Assembly (NCBI RefSeq): GCF_010537335.1
Contig: NZ_AP019711.1
Location: 186,001-250,000 of the forward strand
Reading direction: 5' to 3'
Length of the DNA stretch: 64,000 nt
From: Amedibacterium intestinale
GTDB lineage: Bacteria > Bacillota_I > Bacilli_A > Erysipelotrichales > Erysipelotrichaceae
Both the position numbers and the translations under genes were made by a program. Below are positions 6,491 to 55,880 of the stretch, in pieces (the stretch's first letter is position 1; every line of letters starts with the position of its first letter). The notes below the pieces were generated by a model that saw only the letters and a program-made list of their open reading frames with translations, searched no databases and had not been told where the DNA came from.

Positions 6491-6526
6491 AAAAAGAAGC
6501 AGAGCTTAAGTTTCTGCTTTTTTATT
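6491..6526. terminator. Bidirectional hairpin terminator
   Basis: Stem AAGCAGA / TCTGCTT with A-rich and T-rich flanks between convergent CDF and pgeF genes. Confidence 0.75.
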
Positions 6527-7283
6527 TCAACATAATGTATGTCATATGTCTTCCACAGTTATGATCTCTTCGATAAGAGAAGAAAGCATCATTTTCCTGG
6601 AAGGTATCGTTTCGATCTATATGAATGTTTTCCGCTAAAACACCAGCATTTAAAAGCATTTGCATATTTAATCCTTTATTATCCATATATGCTTTATCTT
6701 CATTTTTTCTTATAAGATAAGAAGAGGTATCAAAGCTCATCGCCTGTACTTTTTCAATTACATCCATTCCAATTTCTAAACTGTTTTTTTCAATGGCACA
6801 ACCGATGTAGGCTTGTAGATTTGCTGGATCAACGCCTTCTGTCTGTATGATATGAGATACTACTTTTGATGTGATTTCTTTCACTGTTCCCTGCCATCCA
6901 CTGTGAATTGCCGCAACTAAAGAAGTTATAGGATCATATAAAAGCACAGGAACACAGTCTGCATGAAAAACACCTAAGACAATGCCTTTTTCTGTTGTGT
7001 ACAAAGCATCACAATCCGCAATACCATCTTCATAATGTAAGCTACCTTTTCCTTTATCTTTGTTTTCCACTTTATAAAAATGATCGCTGTGTGTCTGACA
7101 GGCAAAAACACAATCGCTTAAATCTTTTCCTATTTCTTTTCCAAATGCTTTTCGATTTTCTAAAATATTGTCTTTATTTCCTGGAACGTGAAGTGCCATG
7201 TTGCCGTTTTCTTTTTCATGGGGATCACGCAATGTTGTGCCAGATAAAATATATGAATTATTCATCCATGGTTTTAATTTCAT
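6522..7283 (-). CDS. pgeF: Peptidoglycan editing factor PgeF (YfiH/laccase-domain family)
   Basis: A 253-residue YfiH-family protein. Members hydrolyse misincorporated amino acids in peptidoglycan precursors, and some act on purine nucleosides. The zinc-site residues are visible in order as His of CQTHSDH, Cys of HADCVPVLLYDP and His of AAIHSGWQGT. The IGCAIEKNSLEIGMDV block is also characteristic. I choose the ATG at 7283, which has AAGGAGG six bases upstream; the longer open frame would add a spurious hydrophobic leader. It is the last chromosomal gene before the ICE, transcribed away from it. Confidence 0.92.
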   Translation of the reverse strand: MKLKPWMNNSYILSGTTLRDPHEKENGNMALHVPGNKDNILENRKAFGKEIGKDLSDCVFACQTHSDHFYKVENKDKGKGSLHYEDGIADCDALYTTEKGIVLGVFHADCVPVLLYDPITSLVAAIHSGWQGTVKEITSKVVSHIIQTEGVDPANLQAYIGCAIEKNSLEIGMDVIEKVQAMSFDTSSYLIRKNEDKAYMDNKGLNMQMLLNAGVLAENIHIDRNDTFQENDAFFSYRRDHNCGRHMTYIMLK

Positions 7284-7550: not shown

Positions 7551-7568
7551 AACAAAAAAATTAGCACT
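7551..7568 (+). repeat. Putative attL: left copy of 18-bp direct repeat at the ICE boundary
   Basis: AACAAAAAAATTAGCACT at 7551-7568 matches 45995-46012 at 17 of 18 positions. The right copy runs into the CIRCE operator of hrcA. The position outside all ICE genes and next to the integrase arm repeats supports an attachment-site role. The precise crossover cannot be fixed by reading alone. Confidence 0.65.
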
Positions 7569-7695
7569 ATGTACTTGTTATTACAGCGTAGCTTTTGTCT
7601 TAGTTCATAGAGTGCCGTAAAGTGCCTATTTACAGGCTTTTCACGGGTTTTATGAATTTATCACATTTCATCAAAAATCGTCAATATACAAAAAT

Positions 7696-7718
7696 TTGGT
7701 GTCAAAATTGGTGTCAAA
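7696..7718 (+). repeat. Integrase arm-type direct repeats, left end
   Basis: Two copies of TTGGTGTCAAA at 7696-7706 and 7708-7718. The same 11-mer occurs twice at the right end (45901-45922). Paired terminal repeats of this kind are the arm sites bound by the N-terminal domain of Tn916-type integrases; the role here is inferred from position. Confidence 0.65.
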
Positions 7719-14025: not shown

Positions 14026-15222
14026 ATGGTTCTGAATGAAGAACAATGGATAAAAGAATTACGGGAGAAACGGATTGCTTACGGTATCTCACAAGGCAGG
14101 CTGGCGGTGGCTTCTGGTATCACAAGAGAATATCTCAATAAGATAGAAAGCGGAAAAATGAAGCCGTCAAAGGAGCTTTTGGAAACTCTGCATAAAGAAC
14201 TGGCAAGGTTCAATCCAGAAGCACCGCTTACCATGCTGTTTGATTATGTGAAAATTCGTTTTCCCACGCTGGATATACAGCATATCATCAAAGACATATT
14301 AAAACTGAATATCAACTATATGCTCCATGAAGATTATGGACATTACAGTTATACGGAGCATTACTCTTTAGGGGACATCTTTATCTATACGTCGGCTGAC
14401 GAAGAAAAAGGTGTCCTTTTAGAGTTAAAGGGGCGTGGTTGCAGGCAGTTTGAAAGTTACCTGCTGGCACAGCAAAGAAGCTGGTATGACTTTCTCATGG
14501 ACGCACTCGTAGACGGTGGCGTGATGAAGCGTATCGACCTTGCTATCAACGACCATACGGGCATTTTGGATATTTCAGAGCTTGCGGAAAAATGCAGAAA
14601 ACGGGAATATATCGGAAAGTCCAGAAGTTATAAGTTTTACCAGTCGGGCGAGCTTATCAAGCATAGAGAGGACGACAGAGAATATATGGGACGCACCCTT
14701 TATCTTGGTTCGCTGAAATCAGATGTGTATTTTTGTATCTATGAAAAGGACTATGAGCAGTACGTCAAGTTAGGGACACCGCTTGAAGAAGCCGACATTA
14801 TCAACCGTTTTGAGATACGGCTTAGAAATGAACGTGCCTATTATGCAGTACGAGATTTGCTGACCTATTATGACGCAGAGCAGACCGCCTTTTCTATCAT
14901 CAACCAGTATGTACGGTTTGTTGATGAAGAACCCGACAAGCGAAAAAATGAATGGAAACTCAATGACCGCTGGGCTTGGTTTATTGGCGATAACAGACAG
15001 AGCTTGAAGCTGACGACAAAGCCAGAGCCTTACACCTTAGACCGCACATTGCGTTGGGTACAAAGGCAGGTAGCACCAACCTTGAAAATGCTGAAAAAGA
15101 TTGATAAAGGAAACGGTACAGACTACATGGAAACAATCGAACAGCAGGCAAAGCTCACAGAAAAGCATAAAATGATAATCAAACAGCAGACGACCCCTGC
15201 AAAAGATTTGGTGGAAAGTTAG
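14026..15222 (+). CDS. mobT: MobT-type relaxase / replication initiator (Tn916 Orf20-like)
   Basis: A 398-residue relaxase of the MobT (Rep_trans, HUH-unrelated rolling-circle) family. It nicks oriT and also drives rolling-circle replication of the circular element. An N-terminal XRE-type helix-turn-helix (about 8-60, SQGRLAVASGITREYLNKIESG) precedes the replication-initiation domain (about 75-340), which includes the family block VMKRIDLAINDHTG and later FEIRLRNERAYYAVRDLL. The start lies unusually close to a GGGGGT ribosome site. It follows the oriT directly and is followed by small membrane-protein genes. Confidence 0.93.
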   Translation: MVLNEEQWIKELREKRIAYGISQGRLAVASGITREYLNKIESGKMKPSKELLETLHKELARFNPEAPLTMLFDYVKIRFPTLDIQHIIKDILKLNINYMLHEDYGHYSYTEHYSLGDIFIYTSADEEKGVLLELKGRGCRQFESYLLAQQRSWYDFLMDALVDGGVMKRIDLAINDHTGILDISELAEKCRKREYIGKSRSYKFYQSGELIKHREDDREYMGRTLYLGSLKSDVYFCIYEKDYEQYVKLGTPLEEADIINRFEIRLRNERAYYAVRDLLTYYDAEQTAFSIINQYVRFVDEEPDKRKNEWKLNDRWAWFIGDNRQSLKLTTKPEPYTLDRTLRWVQRQVAPTLKMLKKIDKGNGTDYMETIEQQAKLTEKHKMIIKQQTTPAKDLVES

Positions 15223-17725: not shown

Positions 17726-18124
17726 TTGAAAAAGATTAAATCTTATACGGGTATCTGGAACGTGGAAAAAGTCTTGTATGCAATCAATGACTTTAACTTA
17801 CCCTTTCCCGTTACCTTTACACAGATTACATGGTTTGTGATTACGGAATTTATCATCATTCTGTTTGGGGATATTCCCCCACTTTCCATGATTGAGGGAG
17901 CATTTCTCAAATATTTTGGTATTCCCGTTGCTCTCACTTGGTTTATGTCGCAGAAAACTTTTGACGGAAAGAAGCCGTACAGCTTTTTGAAATCACAGAT
18001 AACCTATGCCCTGCGACCTAAAATCACTTATGCAGGAAAAGCCGTAAAACTGCATAAGCAGACCTTGAATGAAACAATCACGGCAGTAAGGAGTGTGAAC
18101 TATGTTCCCGATAAAATATATTGA
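17726..18124 (+). CDS. tcpE: TcpE-family conjugal transfer membrane protein (Tn916 Orf17-like)
   Basis: A 132-residue inner-membrane component of the Tn916/ICEBs1 (ConD) and pCW3 (TcpE) transfer channels. Two hydrophobic helices (about 29-47 and 62-78) are followed by a basic cytoplasmic tail. The start is a TTG with AAAGGAGCTG upstream; no in-frame ATG fits. It overlaps the VirB4-like gene by 23 bp, indicating coupled translation. Confidence 0.88.
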   Translation: MKKIKSYTGIWNVEKVLYAINDFNLPFPVTFTQITWFVITEFIIILFGDIPPLSMIEGAFLKYFGIPVALTWFMSQKTFDGKKPYSFLKSQITYALRPKITYAGKAVKLHKQTLNETITAVRSVNYVPDKIY

Positions 18125-20552
18125 CAATAACCTTGTCTGGAACAAGGACAATGAGGTGTTCGCTTACTATGAGTTGATACCGTATAACTATTCTTTCCTA
18201 TCCGCAGAGCAGAAATTTATCGTGCATGACAGCTTTCGCCAGCTTATCGCACAGTCCCGTGAGGGTAAAATTCATGCCTTGCAGATTGCCACAGAAAGCT
18301 CCATACGAAGTATGCAGGAACAGTCAAAGAAACTGGTAACTGGAAAATTAAAGGAAGTTGCCTATCAGAAGATAGACGAACAGACCGAAGCGTTAGTATC
18401 TATGATTGGGGACAATCAAGTGGACTACCGTTTTTTTCTTGGCTTTAAGCTCATGGTTACGGAAGAACAGCTCAATCTGAAGAACATCAAAAAATCGGCG
18501 TGGCTGACGTTTACGGAATTTCTCCATGAAGTGAACCACACGCTGATGAATGACTTTGTTTCCATGCCGAATGATGAAATCAACCGTTACATGAAAATGG
18601 AAAAGTTACTGGAAAATAAAATATCAAGGCGTTTTAAGGTGCGTCGCTTGGAAATCAATGATTTTGGGTATCTCATGGAACATCTTTACGGCAGGGACGG
18701 TATCGCCTATGAAGATTATGAGTACCAGCTACCAAAGAAAAAATTGAACAAAGAAACGCTGATAAAATACTACGACCTTATCCGTCCGACAAGGTGTGTG
18801 ATTGAGGAAAGCCAGCGGTATTTACGATTGGAACATGAGGACAAGGAAAGTTATGTGTCCTACTTTACTGTCAATGCGATTGTCGGGGAGCTTGATTTTC
18901 CGTCGTCTGAAATCTTCTATTTCCAGCAACAGCAATTCACATTCCCCGTTGATACTTCTATGAATGTAGAAATCGTGGAGAACCGAAAAGCATTAACGAC
19001 AGTAAGAAACAAGAAAAAGGAATTGAAAGACCTTGACAATCACGCTTATCAAGCAGGAAGTGAAACCAGCTCAAATGTGGTGGACGCCTTAGACAGCGTG
19101 GACGAGCTGGAAACAGACTTAGACCAGAGCAAAGAAAGTATGTATAAGTTAAGCTACGTGATACGGGTGTCTGCACCCGATCTTGACGAGCTGAAACGCC
19201 GTTGTGATGAAGTCAAGGACTTTTACGACGACCTCAATGTAAAGTTGGTGCGTCCTGCTGGGGATATGCTGGGGCTTCATTCTGAATTTCTTCCAGCCAG
19301 CAAGCGATATATCAATGACTATGTGCAGTATGTAAAATCAGATTTCTTGGCAGGGCTTGGTTTTGGTGCGACCCAGCAGTTAGGAGAAACTATGGGTATC
19401 TATATGGGCTATTCCGTTGATACGGGAAGAAATGTGTACCTGCAACCGTCCCTTGCCAGTCAAGGTGTGAAAGGTACAGTAACAAATGCCCTTGCTTCTG
19501 CTTTTGTCGGTTCGCTTGGCGGTGGGAAGTCGTTCTGCAACAATCTTCTGGTGTATTATGCTGTGCTGTTTGGCGGTCAAGCGGTTATCTTAGACCCTAA
19601 ATCAGAGCGTGGCAACTGGAAAGAAACGCTCCCAGAGATAGCCCGTGAAATCAATATCGTAAACCTTACCAGCGACAAGGACAATGCAGGACTTCTTGAC
19701 CCATTTGTGATTATGAAAGATAAAGAGGACGGAGCGACGCTGGCAAAAGAAATCTTAACATTTTTAACGGGTATCTCTACCCGTGACGGAGATAAATTCC
19801 CTGTGCTTATTAGTGCAATCAGCAAGGTATCTGAAAGCGAACACAGAGGACTGTTAAATGTTATCACAGAATTACGGCAAGAGAATACACCGATTGCGAA
19901 CCATATCGCAAATCATATTGCCAGTTTTACAAATTATGATTTTGCACATCTGCTGTTTTCGGACGGGACAGTAGAAAATACAATCAGTCTGGATAACCAG
20001 CTCAATATCATTCAAGTAGCTGACCTTGTACTGCCAGATAAAGATACCACTTTTAACGAATACACGACCATTGAATTATTATCGGTGGCAATGCTGATTG
20101 TGATTAGTACCTTTGCCCTTGATTTTATCCATTCAGACAGAAGTATTTTTAAGATTGTAGACCTTGACGAAGCGTGGGCGTTCTTAAATGTGGCACAAGG
20201 CGAAACGCTATCAAATAAGCTGGTTCGTGCTGGACGAGCTATGCAGGCAGGCGTTTATTTCGTTACACAATCCTCTGGCGACGTGTCAAAGGAAAGTCTG
20301 AAAAACAATATCGGCTTAAAATTCGCTTTCCGTTCTACTGACATCAACGAGATAAAGCAGACCTTAGAATTTTTCGGTATCGACAAGGACGACGAGAACA
20401 ACCAGAAACGCTTGCGTGATTTGGAGAACGGACAATGCTTATTGCAGGACTTATACGGACGTGTTGGTGTGGTGCAGATACACCCAGTCTTTGAAGAACT
20501 GCTACACGCCTTTGATACCAGACCGCCCATGCAGAGAAATGAGGTGGAGTGA
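18102..20552 (+). CDS. VirB4-type conjugation ATPase (Tn916 Orf16 / ConE-like)
   Basis: An 816-residue motor ATPase of the conjugation channel. Walker A SLGGGKSFCNN is at about 471-481, followed by AVILDPKSERGNW, and Walker B IVDLDEAWAFL is near 690, with the downstream VYFVTQSSGDVSKES motif. The length and order match Tn916 Orf16 and ICEBs1 ConE. It overlaps tcpE at its start and the VirB6-like gene at its end, so the three are one translational unit. Confidence 0.95.
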   Translation: MFPIKYIDNNLVWNKDNEVFAYYELIPYNYSFLSAEQKFIVHDSFRQLIAQSREGKIHALQIATESSIRSMQEQSKKLVTGKLKEVAYQKIDEQTEALVSMIGDNQVDYRFFLGFKLMVTEEQLNLKNIKKSAWLTFTEFLHEVNHTLMNDFVSMPNDEINRYMKMEKLLENKISRRFKVRRLEINDFGYLMEHLYGRDGIAYEDYEYQLPKKKLNKETLIKYYDLIRPTRCVIEESQRYLRLEHEDKESYVSYFTVNAIVGELDFPSSEIFYFQQQQFTFPVDTSMNVEIVENRKALTTVRNKKKELKDLDNHAYQAGSETSSNVVDALDSVDELETDLDQSKESMYKLSYVIRVSAPDLDELKRRCDEVKDFYDDLNVKLVRPAGDMLGLHSEFLPASKRYINDYVQYVKSDFLAGLGFGATQQLGETMGIYMGYSVDTGRNVYLQPSLASQGVKGTVTNALASAFVGSLGGGKSFCNNLLVYYAVLFGGQAVILDPKSERGNWKETLPEIAREINIVNLTSDKDNAGLLDPFVIMKDKEDGATLAKEILTFLTGISTRDGDKFPVLISAISKVSESEHRGLLNVITELRQENTPIANHIANHIASFTNYDFAHLLFSDGTVENTISLDNQLNIIQVADLVLPDKDTTFNEYTTIELLSVAMLIVISTFALDFIHSDRSIFKIVDLDEAWAFLNVAQGETLSNKLVRAGRAMQAGVYFVTQSSGDVSKESLKNNIGLKFAFRSTDINEIKQTLEFFGIDKDDENNQKRLRDLENGQCLLQDLYGRVGVVQIHPVFEELLHAFDTRPPMQRNEVE

Positions 20553-22711
20553 TGAAAGAAAGGATAAAAGGTGCGTTCACAAAAAAGAAGATTTTCCACT
20601 TTCTCAAAATGGCTCTGTTCGTGGTGGCACTCTCCCTTATCCTGCTTTCACTTCTGGGGACGGTAGCTCATGCGACAGGGCTTGTGGACGATACCATAAA
20701 CGCAGAAAATCTATACTCAAAATATCCCCTTTCCAACTACCAGCTTGATTTTTATGTGGATAATAGCTGGTCGTGGCTTCCGTGGAACTGGCTGGACGGT
20801 ATTGGAAAATCGGTGCAGTACGGGCTTTACTGCATTACCAACTTTGTCTGGACGATAAGCCTTTATTTAAGCAATGCAACGGGCTATGTGGTGCAGGAAG
20901 CCTATAAACTGGACTTCATCAACGATATGGCAGACAGTATCGGCAAAAGCATACAGACCCTTGCAGGTGTTACCGAGAATGGCTTCGGGAGTACGGGATT
21001 TTATGTAGGTTCTCTATTACTGATAATTTTAATCATTGGCATTTATGTTGCCTATACAGGACTGATAAAAAGAGAAACCAGCAAAGCGGTTCAAGCGGTT
21101 ATCAATTTTCTTGTGGTGTTCGTGCTGTCGGCTTCGTTTATTGCCTATGCTCCCGACTACATCAAGAAGATAAATGAGTTTTCATCAGACATCAGTACCG
21201 CTTCACTTGACTTGGGAACAAAAATCATGCTCCCCAACTCTGAAAGCGAGGGTAAGGACAGCGTGGACTTGATACGGGACAGCCTATTTTCTATTCAAGT
21301 GGAACAGCCGTGGCTACTCTTGCAATTTGGGAACAGCAACGCAGAAGAAATCGGGACAGACCGTGTGGAAGCTCTGGTATCGGCAAGCCCAGAGGACGAG
21401 GACGGGAAAACCAGAGAAGAAGTCGTAAAAACGGAAATTGAGGACAATGACAACAACAATCTGACGATACCGCAGGTCGTGAACCGTTTAGGTATGGTGT
21501 TCTTCCTATTCATTTTTAATATAGGTATCACAATCTTTGTATTCTTACTGACGGGGATAATGATGTTAAGCCAGATACTTTTTATTATCTTTGCAATGTT
21601 TTTACCTATCAGTTTTCTTCTTTCCATGATACCTAGTCAACAAAATCTGGCAAAGCAGGCAATCGTGAGGGTGTTTAATACCATAATGACACGGGCAGGA
21701 ATTACACTCATTGTAACGGTGGCGTTCAGTATTTCCAGTATGTTTTATAACATCTCCAAAGAGTACCCGTTTTTTATGGTGGCGTTCTTACAGATAGTGT
21801 GTTTTGCAGGTATCTTTATCAAGTTAGGCGACTTAATGAATATGTTCTCTTTGAACGCTGGCGACAGTCAAAACATGGGACGCAGGATATTCCGCAGACC
21901 GTATCTGTTTATGCGACATAGAGCTAGGCGTATGGAAAGACGGCTTGCTGGTGCGGTTACTGCTGGCGGTGTCGCTGGTGCGGTGGCAGGTAGCACGATT
22001 TCAAACAGAAAACCGACAAGGAACACAGCTACAAAAGACAGTCGGGGTAATACATCTTTCAGCATGGGACAACGTGCAGGTTCAAAGGTGGGTGCTGTCT
22101 TAGATACGAAAAATAAAGTAAAAGACAAGGCAAATGCTGTCAAAGAAAATATCAAGGATATGCCGACACAGACCGCTTATGCGGTGTATTCCGCAAAGGA
22201 AAAGGCAAAGTCCAGCGTGTCCGACTTCAAGCGTGGCATGGTGCAGGAACAGCAGTCCAGACAGACGGGACGATTGGAAAAGCAGGAACAGCATAGACAG
22301 AATATCGCTGACAAGCGTATGGAGCTTCAAAAGGCACAAGAAGCAAGGCAGGCACAGCGAAAGGCTGACGGATCAGCGACAACGGGAGCTACCCGTCCCC
22401 ATGAGCGACCAGCCACAGCTTCAAAGACGAGTGCTGAAAAAATGCAGGAAGTGAAACGTCCTGCCACAGCGACCACTTCAAAAGCAAGTGAGCCAGTCAA
22501 GACAAATGTTATTAAAGAGCGTCCGTTATCTTCTGGTGTTTCTGATAGGAAAGCGACCCAGCCTGCACAGACAGTACATAGGCAGAATGTAGAAAAAGTG
22601 GTATCGCAGGAAACACGCCAGAATTACACCAAAGACCGTAGGACAAAGGTTCAGCAGACCACAGAGAAAACCCGTAACCTTGTAACGAAGAAAGGACAGA
22701 AGAAAAAATGA
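20552..22711 (+). CDS. VirB6-like conjugation membrane protein (Tn916 Orf15 / ConG-like)
   Basis: A 719-residue polytopic membrane protein forming part of the channel. A signal-anchor (about 20-45) is followed by hydrophobic segments near 100, 155, 185, 310, 345 and 400, then a 270-residue basic Lys/Arg/Gln/Thr-rich cytoplasmic tail that looks disordered and may contact DNA or the ATPase. The ATG overlaps the stop of the VirB4 gene (TGATG). A GTG one codon earlier is possible. It overlaps the next gene by 4 bp. Confidence 0.9.
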   Translation: MKERIKGAFTKKKIFHFLKMALFVVALSLILLSLLGTVAHATGLVDDTINAENLYSKYPLSNYQLDFYVDNSWSWLPWNWLDGIGKSVQYGLYCITNFVWTISLYLSNATGYVVQEAYKLDFINDMADSIGKSIQTLAGVTENGFGSTGFYVGSLLLIILIIGIYVAYTGLIKRETSKAVQAVINFLVVFVLSASFIAYAPDYIKKINEFSSDISTASLDLGTKIMLPNSESEGKDSVDLIRDSLFSIQVEQPWLLLQFGNSNAEEIGTDRVEALVSASPEDEDGKTREEVVKTEIEDNDNNNLTIPQVVNRLGMVFFLFIFNIGITIFVFLLTGIMMLSQILFIIFAMFLPISFLLSMIPSQQNLAKQAIVRVFNTIMTRAGITLIVTVAFSISSMFYNISKEYPFFMVAFLQIVCFAGIFIKLGDLMNMFSLNAGDSQNMGRRIFRRPYLFMRHRARRMERRLAGAVTAGGVAGAVAGSTISNRKPTRNTATKDSRGNTSFSMGQRAGSKVGAVLDTKNKVKDKANAVKENIKDMPTQTAYAVYSAKEKAKSSVSDFKRGMVQEQQSRQTGRLEKQEQHRQNIADKRMELQKAQEARQAQRKADGSATTGATRPHERPATASKTSAEKMQEVKRPATATTSKASEPVKTNVIKERPLSSGVSDRKATQPAQTVHRQNVEKVVSQETRQNYTKDRRTKVQQTTEKTRNLVTKKGQKKK

Positions 22712-26164: not shown

Positions 26165-26389
26165 ATGATAGGACTAAAAAAGCGAGATATAAAAAAAGCG
26201 TTGAAAGCTGGTGCAAAAGCTGGCGGTGTATCATTGGCTGATGTTCGGGCAGATATTGAAGCGACGATTGATGAAGCTATGAATAGCACCGCCCCAGAAG
26301 TGCAGGCAAATTTCAAAAAATATTTTGGTAATAAACGCCCTACCCCAGAAGAATATATTTACAAGATTACCAAAAAGACAAAGATTTGA
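26165..26389 (+). CDS. Small protein resembling the Spo0A C-terminal DNA-binding domain (copy 1)
   Basis: A 74-residue basic protein, [18 protein letters not shown] at the start and [16 protein letters not shown] at the end. The order of a [13 protein letters not shown] helix, a short Phe-Gly turn and a P-T-P/N-x-E-F/Y-I tail follows the last third of Spo0A (recognition helix and C-terminal helix) without the receiver domain. The ATG at 26165 has AAAGG upstream; an ATG 18 bp earlier lacks a site. A copy about 88% identical in DNA lies at 42086-42310. It could bind DNA at Spo0A-like sites or bind Spo0A itself; both are inference. Confidence 0.62.
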
Positions 26390-26390
26390 A

Positions 26391-26435
26391 AAAAGGCTTG
26401 CTCCATACATAGTGTATGATCTGCAAGCCTTAATC
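26391..26435. terminator. Bidirectional terminator with nested stem
   Basis: AAGGCTTGC (26393-26401) / GCAAGCCTT (26423-26431) with an inner ATACA / TGTAT stem, between the Spo0A-like gene and the convergent kinase gene. Confidence 0.85.
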
Positions 26436-36935: not shown

Positions 36936-37646
36936 ATGAACGATATGGAAGTAATTTTAAGAACAAATAATTTATGTAAAGATTTCAAAAATCAAAGGGC
37001 TGTAAACAATGTATCTATAACCGTCCGTGAAAATTCGATATATGGACTACTCGGTCCAAATGGTGCAGGAAAGTCTACACTTTTAAAAATGATATGTGGA
37101 ATATTGAAACCTACATCTGGAAAAATTGAATTTTCTAATCACAAGTGGAGCAGAAATGATTTATCTTATATCGGTACTCTTATTGAAACACCACCATTGT
37201 ATGAAAATTTGACAGCCTATGAAAATTTGAAAGTTCGTGCTGAATTACTGAAACTTTCAGATGAACGTATAAGAGAAGTGTTGGAAATTGTAGGATTGAA
37301 AAACACAGAAAAAAAACGAGCAGGTCAATTTTCATTAGGAATGAAACAACGCTTGGGAATTGCTCTTGCAATTCTTAATAAACCACGGCTATTGATATTA
37401 GATGAACCGACAAACGGACTAGACCCTGTGGGTATTGAGGAGTTGAGAGAGCTGATTTGCTCCTTTCCAGAACAAGGAATAACTGTTATCTTGTCTAGTC
37501 ATATTTTGTCAGAGGTAGAACAAATTGCAGACGATATTGGCATTATCTCTAATGGAAAGTTGGGTTATGAGGGAAAACTTCATTCGGGAGAAAATTTGGA
37601 ACAGTTGTTTATGCGTATTGTAAAAGAACACAGAAAGGAGTTTTAA
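36936..37646 (+). CDS. Lantibiotic-protection ABC transporter ATP-binding subunit (LanF-like)
   Basis: A 236-residue ATPase of the LanF/SpaF/MutF type: Walker A GPNGAGKSTLL (about 38-48), a LIETPPLYENLTAYENL Q-loop region typical of bacteriocin-immunity transporters, signature FSLGMKQR, Walker B LLILDEPTNGLD and H-loop LSSHILSEVE. It heads an operon of LanF, LanE, LanG, a NisI-like lipoprotein and a two-component system. It works at the membrane, expelling lantibiotics that reach lipid II or the bilayer. Confidence 0.92.
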   Translation: MNDMEVILRTNNLCKDFKNQRAVNNVSITVRENSIYGLLGPNGAGKSTLLKMICGILKPTSGKIEFSNHKWSRNDLSYIGTLIETPPLYENLTAYENLKVRAELLKLSDERIREVLEIVGLKNTEKKRAGQFSLGMKQRLGIALAILNKPRLLILDEPTNGLDPVGIEELRELICSFPEQGITVILSSHILSEVEQIADDIGIISNGKLGYEGKLHSGENLEQLFMRIVKEHRKEF

Positions 37647-37648
37647 CA

Positions 37649-38374
37649 ATGAATTACTTGAAAGCTGAAATGTTGAAGTATAAACGCTCATTTGCTAATA
37701 AGATTTTAGTTATTGCTCCGATTTGCACAGGTTTATTTGCTTGGGTGGTTGGTGGTTTTACAGGTTATCAATATATGACTTTGTACTGGTGGTATGCGTT
37801 TTTGTTACCGGGAACAATCGCTATTCTCTGTTATCTTGCAAATCAGAAAGAAGAACGAGCAGGCAAATATTTTTCTGTGTTTTCCATGTCTATTCATCTT
37901 AAAAAATTCTGGTTCTATAAGAATTTGATTTTGATTGAAAAAATATTGGTTGGAGCATTGATATTATCTTTAATTATTTGCATTTCTAATGTGATTGCCC
38001 CTGCCACAACGGTTTATACAACGTTGCAAGTGTTTGTCGGTAGTATTCTGATTAGTTATGCTTCTATTTGGCAACTGCCATTATGTTTATTCCTTGCAAA
38101 AAAGATTGGAATGTTCGGTACAATTTTCATCAATACACTTTTAGGAATATTCCTACCACCATTAGCAGGAAATACAGATATATGGTTTTTGTTCCCTCAT
38201 TGCTGGTCAGCCAAATTGTCAGAGTCACTTATGGGAATTGAGATAAACGGGACGTTAATGCCACACATAAATATATCGTTAAATATTGTTTTTATTGTAT
38301 TGGTTTTAACAAGCATACTCTTTATTGTATTATCTGCTTTTAGTGCAACATGGTTTTCTAAACAGGAGGGTTAG
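37649..38374 (+). CDS. Lantibiotic-protection ABC transporter permease (LanE/MutE-like)
   Basis: A 241-residue membrane protein with six predicted helices, starting MNYLKAEMLKYKRSFANK, a start shared by LanE subunits. An LSLIICISNVIAP-type helix and the final LSAFSATWFSKQEG also fit. It follows LanF by 2 bp and is followed by LanG after 1 bp, so stoichiometric expression is expected. Confidence 0.88.
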   Translation: MNYLKAEMLKYKRSFANKILVIAPICTGLFAWVVGGFTGYQYMTLYWWYAFLLPGTIAILCYLANQKEERAGKYFSVFSMSIHLKKFWFYKNLILIEKILVGALILSLIICISNVIAPATTVYTTLQVFVGSILISYASIWQLPLCLFLAKKIGMFGTIFINTLLGIFLPPLAGNTDIWFLFPHCWSAKLSESLMGIEINGTLMPHINISLNIVFIVLVLTSILFIVLSAFSATWFSKQEG

Positions 38375-38375
38375 C

Positions 38376-39092
38376 ATGAAAAATGTAATAAACTCTGAAT
38401 TTATAAAAGTCAAACATACCTCATATTGGCAACTTCATATTATTTTGCCTGTGGTTGGTGCTTTGCTGTATATTGCATATTTTGCTATTTACTCAACTGT
38501 TCCTGCACTAAATAAAGAGAACTTTTTATTAGAATTAACAGCTACGGTTTTCCCGTTGGTCATCAGTATTGTTACTGGATTGAATAGTTCCCTAGAAGAA
38601 AGGGCTTCACACTTTCAATGTATTCTTTCATCAAAGGAACGTATTTCTATTTGGAATGGAAAACTAATATTTCTGATTTTAACAGGCTTATTTTCTATTC
38701 AACTTTTGATGATTACGTTTTGGTTGGGGGTAAAAATGCTGGCAATATCTGATATTTCATTATTTTTTTGTGTAAGTGCAGGGTTTATATTGTTTGCAGG
38801 TAATATCGTTATTTATATCTGGCATTTGTTTTTAAGTTATCGTTTTGGAATTGGTTTTTCTCTATTCTTTGGAGTATTTGAAAGTTTGCAGGTCATTTTA
38901 TACAGCAATATTACTCTTGCTGGAGTATTCAGATTTATACCTTTCTCTTGGGGAATTGAGTTGTGCCATTCATTTATAAATTCAGATATAAATATACTGA
39001 ACATTGCGATTGTAGGTTTATTAACAGGGATTACTCTATTTCTAACTTGTATATGGATAAATTGTTGGGAGGGAAGAAAAAAACATGAATAA
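38376..39092 (+). CDS. Lantibiotic-protection ABC transporter permease (LanG/MutG-like)
   Basis: A 238-residue six-helix permease. Its N-terminal MKNVINSEFIKVKHTSYWQLHIILP is typical of LanG subunits, with the TxxW motif before the first helix. The start at 38376 has AGGAGGG upstream. It overlaps the next gene by 8 bp. With LanF and LanE it would make one transporter. Confidence 0.88.
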   Translation: MKNVINSEFIKVKHTSYWQLHIILPVVGALLYIAYFAIYSTVPALNKENFLLELTATVFPLVISIVTGLNSSLEERASHFQCILSSKERISIWNGKLIFLILTGLFSIQLLMITFWLGVKMLAISDISLFFCVSAGFILFAGNIVIYIWHLFLSYRFGIGFSLFFGVFESLQVILYSNITLAGVFRFIPFSWGIELCHSFINSDINILNIAIVGLLTGITLFLTCIWINCWEGRKKHE

Positions 39093-39909
39093 GATATTTA
39101 AGCGAAGTTTCTGCTTGTTATTTCTATGTATAACTTTTCTTTGCTCTGGCTGTTCCTTGCTAGAAAATAATACAGAATATCAGAAAGAAAAAGAAAGATG
39201 TATCGTTAATAAAAACGATATTTCACGATTTAGTTATGGTGGAAATGAGTATGCTATACTTGATGATACTTATGAAAGTTCCGATATTGGCGAATGGGTC
39301 GGATATATTCGGAAATTGATTGTTATTGACGAACAAGGAAATGCTCTCGAACAGATAGATTATGATAGTGATACCCTAGAGGATATGGAAGTGATTTCAC
39401 AAAAATATACAGAACCAGTTTATACTGTACCATATCTTAATGTTTACAAAATAAAAGACAGCAACGCCCCTATGATATTGACTGTTGATGTAAACGGTAA
39501 TTTCCATAAGGCAATTTTATCTGATAAAATTTCAGAAAAAGATACACTTATTCAAATAGAGAAACCAAACGAAGATAATAACTTTACCATAAACAAGGAG
39601 AATTGTACACAGTTAATCAACGGTAATAAAATTTATCAAATTACAAATGAGATTGTGACTTCCGACCAAACAGAAAAATATTTAGGTATAATTGCCGAAA
39701 CGGTTTTATTTGATATGAATACAAAATTACCTATTTCTAAATCAGAGCAGAACCAAATTGATTGGACTGGGGAAAAGAGCCAAAATGTCCAAAGAGTGAA
39801 CTGGTTTTATCAATCCGTTTATACTATAAAAGGACAACAGACAGATACAGCTGTTGCTATCAAGATCAATAATGAATATCGTGTAGCAAAAGCTGTAACT
39901 TGTGAGTAG
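39085..39909 (+). CDS. NisI/SpaI-like lantibiotic immunity lipoprotein
   Basis: A 274-residue exported lipoprotein with lipobox LCSGC (Cys23). The mature part has two similar segments (FSYGGNEYAILDDTYESSDIGEWVGYI and NGNKIYQITNEIVTSDQTEKYLGII), like the two-domain NisI architecture in which each domain can bind the peptide. It would intercept the lantibiotic outside the membrane and cooperate with LanFEG. The family call rests on this repeat pattern and the operon context. Confidence 0.8.
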   Translation: MNKIFKRSFCLLFLCITFLCSGCSLLENNTEYQKEKERCIVNKNDISRFSYGGNEYAILDDTYESSDIGEWVGYIRKLIVIDEQGNALEQIDYDSDTLEDMEVISQKYTEPVYTVPYLNVYKIKDSNAPMILTVDVNGNFHKAILSDKISEKDTLIQIEKPNEDNNFTINKENCTQLINGNKIYQITNEIVTSDQTEKYLGIIAETVLFDMNTKLPISKSEQNQIDWTGEKSQNVQRVNWFYQSVYTIKGQQTDTAVAIKINNEYRVAKAVTCE

Positions 39910-42085: not shown

Positions 42086-42310
42086 ATGATAGGTCTTAAA
42101 AAGCGAGATATAAAAAAAGCATTGAAAGCAGGTGCAAAAGCTGGCGGTATTTCATTGGCTGATGTACGAGCTGATATTGAAGCGACGATTGATGAAGCTA
42201 TGAACAGTACCGACCCAGAGGTGCAGGCAAATTTCAGAAAGTATTTTGGGAATAAACGCCCTACACCCGAAGAATATATTTACAAGATTACAAAAAAGAC
42301 AAAAGTTTAG
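42086..42310 (+). CDS. Small protein resembling the Spo0A C-terminal DNA-binding domain (copy 2)
   Basis: A 74-residue near twin of the protein at 26165-26389, differing at only five positions (for example Ile for Val at residue 28, Asp for Ala in NSTDPEVQ). The two genes are in the same orientation and bracket the three resistance modules as a direct repeat of about 225 bp. AAAAAGGAG precedes the ATG at 42086. An ATG at 42077 is too close to that site. Function as for copy 1: Spo0A-like DNA binding is inferred from pattern only. Confidence 0.62.
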
Positions 42311-42316
42311 TAAAGT

Positions 42317-43256: not shown

Positions 43257-43676
43257 ATGAAAACATCTTCTTTCAAACAAGCCATTGAAGCACAGTTTGA
43301 TTGCCTTTCAAAAAAAGTAATTAAACGTGCAGTAAAGAAAGGCTACCGTGATATGAAAAGGCGTGAAAAACACGAATGTTTATTTTCGGATATTCCAGAT
43401 TATGAACAATCACGTTTTGGAGAATTGGATAAATACGAAAGCGATTATACTGTATTCAATATCTTAGGCATTGAAGTCTGGGTTGAGGACGACCAGTTAA
43501 GCGAAGCCCTTAAAACATTGACAGAGAAGAAACGCAACATTATTTTGTTGTCCTACTTTATGGATATGTCGGATAGTGAAATCAGCGAATTTATTAAAAT
43601 TCCCCGTTCTAACGTTCAGTATCACAGAACAAAAACACTTGAAGCAATGAGAAAAATTATGGAGGAACGCAAATGA
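43257..43676 (+). CDS. Sigma-70-like factor of the ICE (Tn916 Orf7-like)
   Basis: A 139-residue small sigma-factor-like protein. The C-terminal part (TEKKRNIILLSYFMDMSDSEISEFIKIPRSNVQYHRTKTLEAMRKI) is a region-4 helix-turn-helix; the N-terminal part is a degenerate region 2. A perfect AAAGGAGGTGA precedes the ATG. In Tn916 Orf7 activates the genes that run into xis/int. It overlaps the next gene by 4 bp (ATGA). Confidence 0.88.
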   Translation: MKTSSFKQAIEAQFDCLSKKVIKRAVKKGYRDMKRREKHECLFSDIPDYEQSRFGELDKYESDYTVFNILGIEVWVEDDQLSEALKTLTEKKRNIILLSYFMDMSDSEISEFIKIPRSNVQYHRTKTLEAMRKIMEERK

Positions 43677-44627: not shown

Positions 44628-44662
44628 AAGAAAAGAGGCTTTTTCAGAAAGGAATGGTTCTC

Positions 44663-45883
44663 ATGGCAATTAGTAGAAAAGACCCAAAAGGAAGAAAATT
44701 AAGAGAGGGCGAAAACTGGCGTAATGATGGAAGATACAGTTATCGTTATACAGATGTAAGAACAGGCAAGAGATTGACAGTCTATGCACAAGATTTACCA
44801 GAGCTTCGAGAAAAAGAGAAGCAGATTGCAAAGGATATGGAAGATAACATATTGACAGACGGAGCAATCAAAAAAATGACGCTCAACACGTTATTTGAGC
44901 GTTATATGGCAACTCGTGAGTTGGCTGATACTACAAGAGTTAGTTATGTTCGTGCTTGGGAAAACAGAGTAAAAGGCGAGATTGGAAATATTAAAGTTGT
45001 TCAGCTTTTACCCTCACATATTAAAGCATATTATGCGAAACTTTCCAAAGCTGGATATGCTTATTCTACAATCAAGTATATTCACAACCTGCTTTATCCT
45101 GCGTTAGAAATGGCTGTTGATGATGATATTATCCGAAAGAACCCTGCAAAAAGTTCCATTAGCGATTATGGAAAACCAGCAGAGGAAAAAGAAGCCTTAA
45201 CAGTTTCTCAACAAGAAAATTTTATGGAGTTTGTAAAACAGAGCAATGTCTATAACACATATTATCCTATGTTTACCATAATGATTGGTACAGGGTTAAG
45301 GTGTGGGGAGCTTATTGGTCTTACATGGAAAGATATAAACATCAAGGCAAAAACGGTTAATGTAGACCACCAGCTCATTTATAAGAATTTAGGCGACGGT
45401 TGCAAGTTCCATATCTCAACACCAAAAACGGAGTCGGGTATTCGTATTATACCTATGACACAAGAAGTTGCAAAAGCCTTTGAGGAACAAAGGAAAATCA
45501 ATTTCATGCTTGCAAAGGATAAGAGCATTGAGGTGGACGGGTATTCGGGGTTTGTCTTTACAGCGAAATCGGGCAGACCGCTTATGCCGAATGGCGTAAA
45601 TAGTGTTTTATATAACATTGTAGACGCATATAACAAAACCGAAGTAGAGAGAGCAAAAAAAGAGCATAGGAAAGCAGAGCTGTTACCAAAGTTTTCAGCT
45701 CATGTAATGCGTCACACAGCTTGTACCAGAATGGCAGAGTGCCGTATGGACGTAAAAGTTCTTCAATATATTATGGGACACGCTCATATAGATGTAACAA
45801 TGGAAGTGTACAACCATATTGGAGAGCTGACAAGGATTGAAAATGAGATTGCAAGACTAGATAGTATGGTGTTAAATGCTTGA
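44663..45883 (+). CDS. int: Tyrosine recombinase / integrase (Tn916-superfamily)
   Basis: A 406-residue integrase. An N-terminal arm-binding domain (about 1-65, with the RNDGRYSYRYTDVRTGKR beta motif), a core-binding domain (about 70-165) and a catalytic domain (about 185-395) with Arg in GTGLRCGEL, the HVMRHT box, His in MGHAHIDVTM and nucleophile Tyr in MEVYNH. The ATG at 44663 has AGAAAGGA at proper distance; the ATG at 44654 is too close. It lies at the right end of the element, directed toward it, next to arm-type repeats. Confidence 0.95.
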   Translation: MAISRKDPKGRKLREGENWRNDGRYSYRYTDVRTGKRLTVYAQDLPELREKEKQIAKDMEDNILTDGAIKKMTLNTLFERYMATRELADTTRVSYVRAWENRVKGEIGNIKVVQLLPSHIKAYYAKLSKAGYAYSTIKYIHNLLYPALEMAVDDDIIRKNPAKSSISDYGKPAEEKEALTVSQQENFMEFVKQSNVYNTYYPMFTIMIGTGLRCGELIGLTWKDINIKAKTVNVDHQLIYKNLGDGCKFHISTPKTESGIRIIPMTQEVAKAFEEQRKINFMLAKDKSIEVDGYSGFVFTAKSGRPLMPNGVNSVLYNIVDAYNKTEVERAKKEHRKAELLPKFSAHVMRHTACTRMAECRMDVKVLQYIMGHAHIDVTMEVYNHIGELTRIENEIARLDSMVLNA

Positions 45884-45922
45884 CACCATAAAAAGAAAAA
45901 TTGGTGTCAAATTGGTGTCAAA
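45881..45922 (+). repeat. Integrase arm-type repeats, right end
   Basis: TTGGTGTCAAA at 45901-45911 and 45912-45922, plus an inverted TGACACCA at 45881-45888 overlapping the integrase stop region. They match the pair at 7696-7718. Confidence 0.65.
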
Positions 45923-45994
45923 ACAGAAAAAATCACAATTTCAAAAGAAATAAGATACTGCAAACCATTGATTTTAAAGGGTTTGCAAAAAAAT

Positions 45995-46012
45995 AACAAA
46001 AATATTAGCACT
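45995..46012 (+). repeat. Putative attR: right copy of the 18-bp direct repeat
   Basis: AACAAAAATATTAGCACT, 17 of 18 identical to 7551-7568. Its last eight bases are the beginning of the hrcA CIRCE operator. Confidence 0.65.
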
Positions 46013-46075
46013 CAGGTGTTGACAGTGCTAACGAATTGACGTATACTATTAGCAGACATAAGGTAGGAGTGCTAG
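46005..46075 (+). promoter_or_regulatory. hrcA operon promoter with two CIRCE operators
   Basis: CIRCE 1: TTAGCACTC, 9 bp, CAGTGCTAA (46005-46031). CIRCE 2, degenerate: TTAGCAGAC, 9 bp, GAGTGCTAG (46049-46075). Between and across them: TTGACA (46019-46024), 17 bp, TATACT (46042-46047). HrcA bound to both sites would cover -35 and the transcription start. Confidence 0.92.
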
Positions 46076-46089
46076 AGGGAGTGAGAGAG

Positions 46090-47106
46090 ATGCTGTTAAC
46101 AAATAGACAGATTGCGATATTCAAAGCAATTGTGGATGAATTTACCAAAACAGCAGAGCCTGTCGGTTCCAAGCGTTTGATTGATCTCTTGGATTTCTCC
46201 TGTTCAAGTGCTACCATCCGAAATGAAATGGCAGCCTTAGAAGAAATGGGATTGTTAGAAAAAACACATACTTCCAGTGGAAGAATTCCCAGCAGCAAAG
46301 GATATCGTTTCTATGTTGAAAATCTAATGGAAAAGCAATTGGATGAAGGAATCAAAGATTCCCTGCAGGAAGTTTTTCGTCAAAGACATTTTTCCATGGA
46401 TGAAGTTGTTAAGAAAAGCTGTGAAATCTTATCGCAGATGACATCGCTAACTTCTGTTGTGCTTGGACCGGAAAGCAGATATCAGACACTGCAGCATGTA
46501 CAGCTGTTTCCATTAACAGAAAGAAGTGCTGTGGCAGTATTTATTACCGACCATGGACATACGGAGAATAAGACATTTCATTTTCAAGCGGATGTTAGCT
46601 TAGAGGATATTAAAACTTGCTGTAATATTTTAAATGATAAGCTAGTCGGAACGCCAATTTGCAATGTTGTTGAGAGAATGAAGGAAATTGAACCTTTGAT
46701 AGCTTCTCATGTTGCCCGTCATGAAGTGCTGTTTGAAGCATTCGTTAGTGCATTTATGAAATTTGCAAGTGAACATGTGTACTGCAGTGGGCAATCTAAT
46801 ATGTTATATCAGCCGGAATTTGCGGATATTGAAAAACTGAAAGAATTGATGAAAATGCTGGAGGATAGCTCTTTATTTCGACAGATTGCAAATCATGAAG
46901 GAAATGTGGCGATTGAAATTGGCGGAGAAAACAATTTGATTCAAATGGACAATGTAGCAGTTGTTTCCAGCCGATTTAAAATGAATGACAAAGAAGAAGG
47001 AGAACTGATGATTGTTGGTCCAACAAGGATGCAGTACAATCGTGTAGTTGCCTTAATGGAATATATGAGTAAAGTGTTGGAAGATATGTATCGACAGGAA
47101 GAATAA
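46090..47106 (+). CDS. hrcA: Heat-inducible transcriptional repressor HrcA
   Basis: A 338-residue repressor that binds CIRCE and is kept active by GroEL. It opens with LTNRQIAIFKAIVDEFTKTAEPVGSKRLIDLLDFSCSSATIRNEMAALEE (winged helix), followed by the SSGRIPSSKGYRFYVENLM stretch typical of HrcA and a GAF-like domain. I start at 46090, where GGGAG precedes ATG. First gene of the hrcA-grpE-dnaK-dnaJ operon and the first host gene to the right of the ICE; it controls its own operon and, through the double CIRCE there, clpB. Confidence 0.96.
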   Translation: MLLTNRQIAIFKAIVDEFTKTAEPVGSKRLIDLLDFSCSSATIRNEMAALEEMGLLEKTHTSSGRIPSSKGYRFYVENLMEKQLDEGIKDSLQEVFRQRHFSMDEVVKKSCEILSQMTSLTSVVLGPESRYQTLQHVQLFPLTERSAVAVFITDHGHTENKTFHFQADVSLEDIKTCCNILNDKLVGTPICNVVERMKEIEPLIASHVARHEVLFEAFVSAFMKFASEHVYCSGQSNMLYQPEFADIEKLKELMKMLEDSSLFRQIANHEGNVAIEIGGENNLIQMDNVAVVSSRFKMNDKEEGELMIVGPTRMQYNRVVALMEYMSKVLEDMYRQEE

Positions 47107-47116
47107 GGAGGTCAGT

Positions 47117-47749
47117 ATGCAGGAAGAAAAAAATGTACAGGAAGAAATTAAAGAAGAAGTAAAAGAAGAAACTGCACAGGCATCAAGTGAAGAAGTAGCA
47201 AAGGAAGATGCAAATGTAGAAGAAACAGAAAATGTAGAAACAAATAAAGAAGAAAAAAAATCATCCAAGCTTTTCAAGAAAAAAAGAATTGAAGAGCTGG
47301 AAGAAGAGGTTGCGAAACTGAAGGAAGAACTTGCAGCTAGTAAAAATGCCTACTTTAAGGCTTATGCCGATGCAGAAAATTTAAAGAAACGTTTACAGGC
47401 AGAGGCTGACAATGTACGAAAATATCGTATTCAGGGATTTGCGACAGAGGTGCTGCCAGTTATTGACAACTTGGAACGAGCATTGGCAACCAATGTGGAA
47501 GATCCAAATTTGAAGAATTATGTAAAAGGATTTGAAATGATTTATCAGCAGTTGATTCATATTTTGAATAACGAAGGTGTAAAAGAAATTGAAGCACAGG
47601 ATAAACCATTTGATCCAAACTTCCATCAGGCATTGATGCAGGAAGCTGTAGAAGGTGTAGAGCCTGGAATGGTTGTGGAAGTGTTACAGAAAGGTTATAT
47701 GTTAAAAGATCGTGTATTACGTGCTACCCTTGTTAAGGTAAGTGAATAA
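47117..47749 (+). CDS. grpE: Nucleotide exchange factor GrpE
   Basis: A 210-residue DnaK nucleotide-exchange factor. An unusually long, Glu/Lys/Val-rich N terminus (about 1-70, disordered or coiled coil) precedes the coiled-coil and beta domain with YADAENLKKRLQAEADNVRKYRIQGFATEVLPVIDNLERAL and the C-terminal FDPNFHQALMQEAVEGVEPGMVVEVLQKGYMLKDRVLRATLVKVS. It follows hrcA by 10 bp in the same operon. Confidence 0.97.
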   Translation: MQEEKNVQEEIKEEVKEETAQASSEEVAKEDANVEETENVETNKEEKKSSKLFKKKRIEELEEEVAKLKEELAASKNAYFKAYADAENLKKRLQAEADNVRKYRIQGFATEVLPVIDNLERALATNVEDPNLKNYVKGFEMIYQQLIHILNNEGVKEIEAQDKPFDPNFHQALMQEAVEGVEPGMVVEVLQKGYMLKDRVLRATLVKVSE

Positions 47750-49573
<1,824 letters not shown>

Positions 49574-49620: not shown

Positions 49621-49729
49621 GTTACTGCCTCAAGTCGGGTAGTAACGTTTTATAGGAAGAAAGTGGAGAATTTATCATCTGTAATAAACGACAAGAAAGA
49701 TAAGATAACTCCATAGGAGGGTGATCCGA

Positions 49730-50839
49730 ATGAGTAGTGAAAAAAGAGATTATTATGAAGTCCTTGGGCTTAGCAAAGGTGCAAGTGATGATGAGATAAA
49801 AAGAGCCTATCGTAAGATGGCGAAAAAATACCATCCGGATATAAACAAAGAACCGGATGCAGAGGCAAAATTTAAAGAAATTAATGAGGCTTATGAAGTT
49901 TTAAGTGATCCTCAAAAGAAAGCAACATACGATCAGTTTGGTTTTGCAGGTATGGATGGTGCACAGGGCTTTGGTGGACAAGGCTTTGGAGGATTTGAAG
50001 ATTTTGGTGATATTTTTGGGTCTTTCTTTGGAGGAGGTTTTGGCGGTGGAAGTCGTCGAAGCAATACAGGACCTCGTAAAGGAAATGATCGTTTCATGCA
50101 GATGCGTATTGATTTCATGGACGCAATTTTTGGTAGAACTGAAACAATTACGCTGGAAGTTGATGAGCCTTGTGAAGAATGTTCTGGAACAGGGGCTAGA
50201 TCAAAATCAGATATTACCTCATGTTCTCGCTGTGGAGGAAGTGGTACAGTAACGACACAGCAGCGTACACCATTTGGAGTGTTCCAGTCACAGTCTGTAT
50301 GTCCTGACTGTAATGGAACCGGAAAGAAAATTTTGCATAAATGTTCAAAATGCGGTGGAAAAGGTTATGAACATAAACGTGTGAAATTGGATATCAAGAT
50401 TCCTGCAGGTATTCAGTCTGGTCAGCAGGTACGTGTTCCAAATAAAGGAGAACGTGGAATTAATGGAGGTCCTAATGGGGACTTGTATATTGAAATCTTA
50501 GTTGGACGTCATAAACAATTTGTTCGTGATGGAAATGATATTCGAATTTCTATTCCTATTAGTGCTGTTGATGCTGTGTTAGGATGTAAAATTGATGTTC
50601 CAACTGTATATGGGGATGTAGAGCTTACCATTCCTGCAGGAACGCAATATGGACAGCAGTTCCGTTTAAAAGGAAAAGGTGTAAAATCTCCACGTGGACA
50701 GCAGGGAGATCAATATGTAGAAGTACGTGTTGAAATTCCAACAAAGATTACCAGAGAAGAAAAAGATTTATATGAAAAACTTCGTAGTAAAAAAGGGCAT
50801 GAATCTCCTTTTGAGAAGTTTAAAAAAGCATTTAAGTAG
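49730..50839 (+). CDS. dnaJ: Chaperone protein DnaJ (Hsp40)
   Basis: A 369-residue type I Hsp40: J domain (about 4-70, HPD motif in YHPDINKEP), Gly/Phe region (about 78-115), a four-repeat zinc domain ([34 protein letters not shown]) and C-terminal substrate-binding domains. Start ATG at 49730 with AGGAGGG upstream; a GTG nine bases earlier is less likely. Last gene of the heat-shock operon, followed by a strong terminator. Confidence 0.97.
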
Positions 50840-55807: not shown

Positions 55808-55880
55808 TTAGCACTCTTATATTGACAGTGCTAAAAGAAGTGTTATAATACAGTTAGCAATCAAAGTGATAGAGTGCTAA
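55808..55880 (+). promoter_or_regulatory. clpB promoter with two CIRCE operators
   Basis: CIRCE 1: TTAGCACTC, 9 bp, CAGTGCTAA (55808-55834). CIRCE 2: TTAGCAATC, 9 bp, GAGTGCTAA (55854-55880). TTGACA (55822-55827), 16 bp, TATAAT (55844-55849). The layout is nearly identical to that of hrcA. Confidence 0.95.

Follow-up and report, generated by a model that had tools for sequence, protein, structure and literature searches.

What an ICE recognised when it came to lie between pgeF and the hrcA heat-shock operon, and how that operon's control region fared, are the questions raised by this locus. The host genome (G000, a single contig of 2.49 Mb) belongs to a Longicatena-like member of the Erysipelotrichaceae, its HrcA being 88–89% identical to those of Longicatena caecimuris and of an uncultured relative. 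Within the stretch of 64,000 nucleotides analysed here (the window), an ICE of ~38.45 kb (~7569–46018) separates pgeF from hrcA-grpE-dnaK-dnaJ. At three loci of related species (L005–L007; no empty site from the same species), pgeF is directly upstream of CIRCE-hrcA, with nothing intervening. The framework of the locus is as follows.

6522–7283, minus strand: pgeF, the host neighbour on the left (TIGR00726)
7569–46018, plus strand: ICE of ~38.45 kb, its outer bounds being TTAGCACT at the left and the six variable bases (N6) of CIRCE at the right, from homology to the ICE of genome G569
46019–46047, plus strand: host promoter of the hrcA operon (-35 TTGACA at 46019–46024, 17 bp, -10 TATACT at 46042–46047)
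46090–47106, plus strand: hrcA, followed by grpE (47117–47749), dnaK (47765–49573) and dnaJ (49721–50839)

Both the -35 and the -10 of the host have been retained after insertion. The sequence-only reading had put the -35 just beyond CIRCE; TTGACA in fact falls inside it. There is no tRNA in the window, and the attachment site is an intergenic operator, so the pattern of an ICE at a tRNA or protein-gene end is not met.

The genes between pgeF and hrcA, which also include two-component systems, identify the type of element.

7695–7718, plus strand: probable left arm-type integrase sites, two direct repeats of TTGGTGTCAAA
7796–10918, plus strand: VaFE-repeat LPXTG surface protein
14026–15222, plus strand: MobT relaxase (NF041493, E 1.9e-204)
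18102–20552, plus strand: conjugal transfer ATPase TcpF (NF052333)
20549–22711, plus strand: CD3337/EF1877 family mobilome membrane protein (NF046089)
36936–39909, plus strand: cargo for lantibiotic immunity, comprising an ABC ATPase, MutE, MutG and a NisI/SpaI lipoprotein (TIGR03740, TIGR03732, TIGR03733, NF033433)
43257–43676, plus strand: sigma-70 region 4 type regulator in a Tn916-like position (PF08281, PF04545)
44654–45883, plus strand: tyrosine integrase with the arm-binding domain of Tn916 Int (PF02920, E 1.2e-17; PF00589, E 2.6e-29)
45901–45922, plus strand: probable right arm-type integrase sites, two direct repeats of TTGGTGTCAAA

A Tn916-type conjugation module, consisting of the MobT relaxase, the TcpF ATPase and their partners, is thus present. 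At the cut-off used, the only solved relatives of the integrase were PDB 6en0, 6emy and 6emz, which are structures of the Tn1549 Int (PMC5871717); the match to that protein has an E value of 2.7e-49. This gene set, the Tn916-type integrase and the paired TTGGTGTCAAA near each end together give a Tn916/Tn1549-type layout. By its sequence the element is therefore classed as a Tn916/Tn1549-type ICE, whose excision as a circle and conjugative transfer are inferred, without experiment.

Two further features were observed inside the element. A direct repeat of 222 bp (91% identical, at 26175–26396 and 42094–42315) brackets ~15.9 kb of cargo, namely two-component systems, ABC permeases and lantibiotic immunity. 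Since the sister ICE in G569 has one region matching this repeat and different cargo there, a swap at the 222-bp repeat may have brought in the present cargo. Near the right end, an inverted repeat GCAAACC...GGTTTGC (45960–45986, plus strand) is followed by A-runs; of unknown role, it is conserved close to the right end in most relatives, the diverged copy in G360:C13 included.

To locate the exact ends, we compared the two boundaries of the element with each other and with those of the sister ICE. The relevant features are listed here.

7561–7568, plus strand: attL, the host's original first CIRCE arm TTAGCACT, an orphan half-site
7569–7574, plus strand: attL 6-bp variable segment ATGTAC, coupling-like, unlike that of attR
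7575–7581, plus strand: TTGTTAT at the left tip of the element, conserved across G569, G360 (two), G298, G404 and G500
46005–46012, plus strand: attR, element-borne first CIRCE arm TTAGCACT, kept at 12/12 right ends in the order
46013–46018, plus strand: attR 6-bp variable segment CAGGTG
46005–46031, plus strand: rebuilt CIRCE operator of hrcA, one mismatch to the consensus
55808–55834, plus strand: unoccupied clpB CIRCE of this genome (in the relatives G417 and G415 the element is at such a site)

The earlier reading had described an 18-bp repeat, and this is present, as AACAAAAAAATTAGCACT at 7551–7568 and AACAAAAATATTAGCACT at 45995–46012, with one mismatch. The complete CIRCE that it reported at 46005–46031, upstream of hrcA, likewise holds up, with one mismatch to TTAGCACTC-N9-GAGTGCTAA; the window contains four CIRCE-like sites with up to three mismatches, against 0.03 expected. 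Of the 18-bp repeat, however, only the 8 bp TTAGCACT at 7561–7568 and 46005–46012 are functional, not the A-rich 10 bp preceding them, which are host DNA in the left copy and element DNA in the right. These A-rich bases find no match in the sister insertion, and the full 18 bp was for this reason rejected as the functional unit. A weaker CIRCE-like sequence (three mismatches, 46049–46075) starts just past the -10 of hrcA, and two such sites are arranged in the same way at the clpB promoter (55808–55834 and 55854–55880).

The sister insertion is that of G569, from the same family and another genus, where a near-identical ICE (integrase 99.5–100% identical) lies in the CIRCE that precedes three hsp20 genes. 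This ICE and the window are homologous from precisely 7561 to precisely 46031, between unrelated flanks. Exact limits with different flanks fix both ends of the ICE, and they lie at the repeat, as had been proposed. Together with the uninterrupted pgeF-hrcA of related species, they support the proposal that the element integrated into the CIRCE of hrcA and that the operator was rebuilt. Because one element is here seen as two copies in two different CIRCEs, what the insertions have in common is CIRCE and not a gene.

Whether the half-site had been brought by the element or copied from the host had been left undecided. The insertion in G404 separates the two, its left end reading TTGGCACT-CAAATA-TTGTTATCGC and its right end TTAGCACT-CAAATA-TTGACAGTGCTAA; the free htpG CIRCE in G000 likewise has TTGGCACT for its first arm. 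Since the ends differ in the arm, it is the host arm that remains at the left end, and the TTAGCACT of the rebuilt operator comes from the element: the half-site was brought, and copying is ruled out by the TTGGCACT on the left and the TTAGCACT in the operator. Element ends in G298 retain TTAGCACT even though that genome's own CIRCEs read TTGGCACT...AGTGCCAA. The stranded left arm in G500 reads ATAGCACC, a change that we infer to be of the kind expected in a half-site freed from selection.

To see how general this arrangement is, we searched 316 genomes drawn from the order for right-end DNA. Twelve right ends were found, in 11 genomes, and 11 of the 12 lead directly into CIRCE.

Right end at the CIRCE of hrcA (1): G000
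Right ends at the CIRCE of hsp20 (6): G569, G360 (two contigs), G057, G151, G500
Right ends at the CIRCE of clpB (2): G417, G415
Right end at the CIRCE of htpG (1): G404
Right end at CIRCE, where the contig ends: G394
Twelfth right end: G580, where CACCTC and TTG come next and then another Tn916-like element, entered at its left end

Gene names at these sites are from Pfam and NCBIfam matches for representatives. Remnants account for several of the 12 right ends, and a shared ancestral insertion could underlie some of the hsp20 cases within one family. The sequence-only reading had suggested looking for related ICEs at other CIRCEs, for example at clpB; they occur at hsp20, clpB and htpG. Orientation is uniform in all insertions of the family, with the integrase end toward the heat-shock gene. 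CIRCE is scarce, with 2–5 clear sites per genome.

Beyond these cases, no CIRCE with fewer than six mismatches was found at ~20 other tyrosine recombinase loci, including Tn916/Tn1549-type ones at 33–42% identity. G000 itself has a second Tn916/Tn1549-type integrase (L095, G000:C1:2214903–2216078; 33–35% identical), with no adjoining CIRCE. Remnant ends were observed outside the order, in a genome of the same class (L112–L113, G298:C10:28229–28419; L116, G298:C33:596); the right end of the C10 remnant has no CIRCE after it, and the remnant left end in this genome lies downstream of a cysE-like gene. Scans of viral contigs with the left-end pattern and the integrase gave no match, and plasmid records yielded only integrases below 60% identity, the best of them (Subdoligranulum, 42%) without CIRCE. 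There was no match in 74 genomes of another family, a search that had no positive control, and no further close integrase in a 395-genome sample of the class.

Both ends were seen in seven elements, and the 6-bp segments between arm and TTG could be compared (left/right).

G000: ATGTAC/CAGGTG
G569: CTACTA/CACCTC
G360:C13: TACCAC/CATCTA
G360:C44: CGCATC/CACCTC
G404: CAAATA/CAAATA
G500: GTCCTC/CTATAC
G580: TGGCTC/CACCTC

In six of the seven the two segments are unlike, and there is no target duplication. A coupling segment, about 6 bp long, heterologous and without target duplication, is what such ends would imply; we infer it from integrated copies, not from circles. The left end of Tn916 has a donor-derived coupling sequence of 6 bp (PMC12084037), and Tn1549 tolerates crossovers of 5–7 nt of varied sequence (PMC5871717). 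The left segment of G569 equals that of the free hsp20 CIRCE in G000, which fits a donor at an hsp20-type site; as a single six-base match this is weak evidence. Judged from these ends, the exchange could span 6 bp at CIRCE positions 9–14 or 7 bp at positions 11–17, centred on the dyad; both fit, and the choice is undecided.

Rebuilt operators also appear to have been used again. The left flank of the element in G360:C13 resembles that element's own right end (score 40, reached by 1 in 5000 dinucleotide shuffles and by 0 of 700 host windows) and is most plausibly the remaining tip of an older element, which would mean that a rebuilt CIRCE was struck again. In G580 two elements stand in line, a tandem insertion that points to the same reuse. 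At that locus (L197, G580:C67, reverse complement of 1807–2830), a remnant of ~1 kb meets, at the same core, a different Tn916-like left end; the arm repeats of this second element are GGTGTAGTAAA.

In the Tn1549 Int, N150 makes the sole base-specific contacts and R153 opens the DNA (PMC5871717). Aligned with it, the integrases of the CIRCE clade have Y or F at the position of N150 and N at that of R153. Seven of eight control integrases have N and R, and the eighth, from Subdoligranulum, has S and T. These replacements fit an altered specificity, without proving it.

The reading that we prefer, at a probability of about 0.9, is that this is a Tn916/Tn1549-type ICE whose tyrosine integrase takes the CIRCE operator as its attachment site, a proposal made in the absence of activity data. 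On the sequence evidence, the element splits TTAGCACT-N6-TTGACAGTGCTAA between the first 8 bp and TTG. The right end always brings its own TTAGCACT and so completes a CIRCE adjoining the host -35 and -10, leaving the host's first arm stranded at the left end beside the element tip TTGTTAT. The CIRCEs of hrcA, hsp20, clpB and htpG are all hit in this way, in a single orientation, and a rebuilt CIRCE can be hit anew to give tandem arrays. We infer that the integrase reads the CIRCE DNA itself and not a gene, that the 6-bp segment is a Tn916-style coupling or crossover region whose left copy is probably donor-derived, and that insertion goes one way because TTG(ACA) is recognised, because an intact -35 is selected for, or for both reasons. 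HrcA presumably still binds the rebuilt operator, although binding data are lacking; if so, insertion would cost the host little. The junction of the excised circle would read ...AAAATATTAGCACT-N6-TTGTTATTAC..., and the chromosome would regain its CIRCE.

Might the element instead find the heat-shock neighbourhood, or be tethered by HrcA bound at CIRCE, without its integrase reading CIRCE at all? Every site is indeed an HrcA-type operator, and protein-guided targeting is known in some other mobile elements. Such guidance would leave unexplained why the exchange point is fixed at one place within CIRCE, why the element's own end holds the same 8 bp and why the residues that read the core in Tn1549 are changed; the adjoining genes, moreover, vary among sites. 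We regard this explanation as improbable. Inheritance of a single ancestral CIRCE insertion, or its spread by homologous recombination without any targeting, is scarcely tenable. It could account for the hsp20 sites of G360 and G057, from a single family, which may share a history. As the sole explanation it is excluded by the near-identical ICEs of G000 (at hrcA) and G569 (at hsp20), whose flanks are unrelated; insertions at clpB and htpG in other genomes and two different elements at two hsp20 genes of G360 also speak against it.

A third possibility is an integrase of low specificity that, like that of Tn916, takes AT-rich DNA around a 6-bp spacer, the CIRCEs having been recovered as tolerated AT-rich heat-shock promoters. 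T-rich and A-rich stretches around 6 bp are used by both Tn916 and Tn1549 (PMC12084037, PMC5871717), the DNA upstream of the CIRCEs is A-rich, and the G298:C10 end is not at CIRCE. A loosely AT-rich target does not, however, predict what is seen in the order, where 11 of the 12 right ends coincide to the base within a type of site found only a few times in each genome, and more distant integrases of the same type are without CIRCE. This alternative is strongly disfavoured and seems to us marginally less probable than guidance by neighbourhood or HrcA.

With CIRCE as the preferred attachment site, consequences for the host can be considered. The rebuilt operator agrees with the consensus as well as native CIRCEs do. 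No terminator-like site was found on the plus strand between int and hrcA, so transcripts of int could run into the hrcA operon; such read-through, which the sequence-only reading had raised, is possible, and there are no expression data on the chaperones. More speculatively, integrase and HrcA might compete for the same operator, so that CIRCE would be shielded by HrcA while the cell is unstressed and become accessible under heat or folding stress. We consider this unlikely on present evidence, if worth keeping in mind: were it true, the stress state of the host would gate integration and perhaps excision, and a conserved stress operator would give the element a portable landing site usable in different species.

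ICEs mostly integrate at tRNA genes, at the ends of genes or in loosely AT-rich DNA. The data here point to a mobile-element family with a stress-response operator as its landing site, a regulatory sequence that many bacteria conserve and that occurs several times in each genome. Because the element repairs the operator, the operator both survives and can be reused. The family would offer a natural specificity switch inside the Tn916/Tn1549 integrases, with a solved relative at hand, and through it a connection of stress regulation with integration can be tested directly; the lantibiotic immunity in the cargo adds relevance to the gut.

Compared with known systems, the element resembles Tn916 in its right-end integrase with the Tn916 arm-binding domain, its MobT relaxase, its direct-repeat arm sites near both ends and its differing 6-bp segment without target duplication. 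Tn916 sites, however, are ~16 bp of AT-rich DNA (T-rich, 6 bp, A-rich; PMC12084037), where the present family uses CIRCE. Tn1549, the vanB conjugative transposon, has the closest solved integrase and a crossover of 5–7 nt between end repeats (PMC5871717), but its target is TTTT-n6-AAAA, and the CIRCE family has Y/F for N150 and N for R153. As with the TnGBS family, promoters of many genes adjoin the insertions; TnGBS elements, in contrast, use a DDE transposase, insert 15–16 bp upstream of a sigma A -35, not at CIRCE, and duplicate the target (PMC4701971), whereas the integrase here is a tyrosine recombinase. Site-specific ICEs and prophages with tyrosine integrases (at tRNA genes, rplL and guaA, and the dnaJ2 prophages of Bifidobacterium) likewise rebuild a conserved functional sequence from element DNA, but their targets are gene ends (PMC4701971, PMC6109161) and not a regulatory operator with several copies per genome. 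We found no published ICE at CIRCE, hrcA or hsp20 in the open-access papers searched; a single seeming match proved to be the name of a company. As judged from sequence comparison, CIRCE is a new target class for a known type of ICE.
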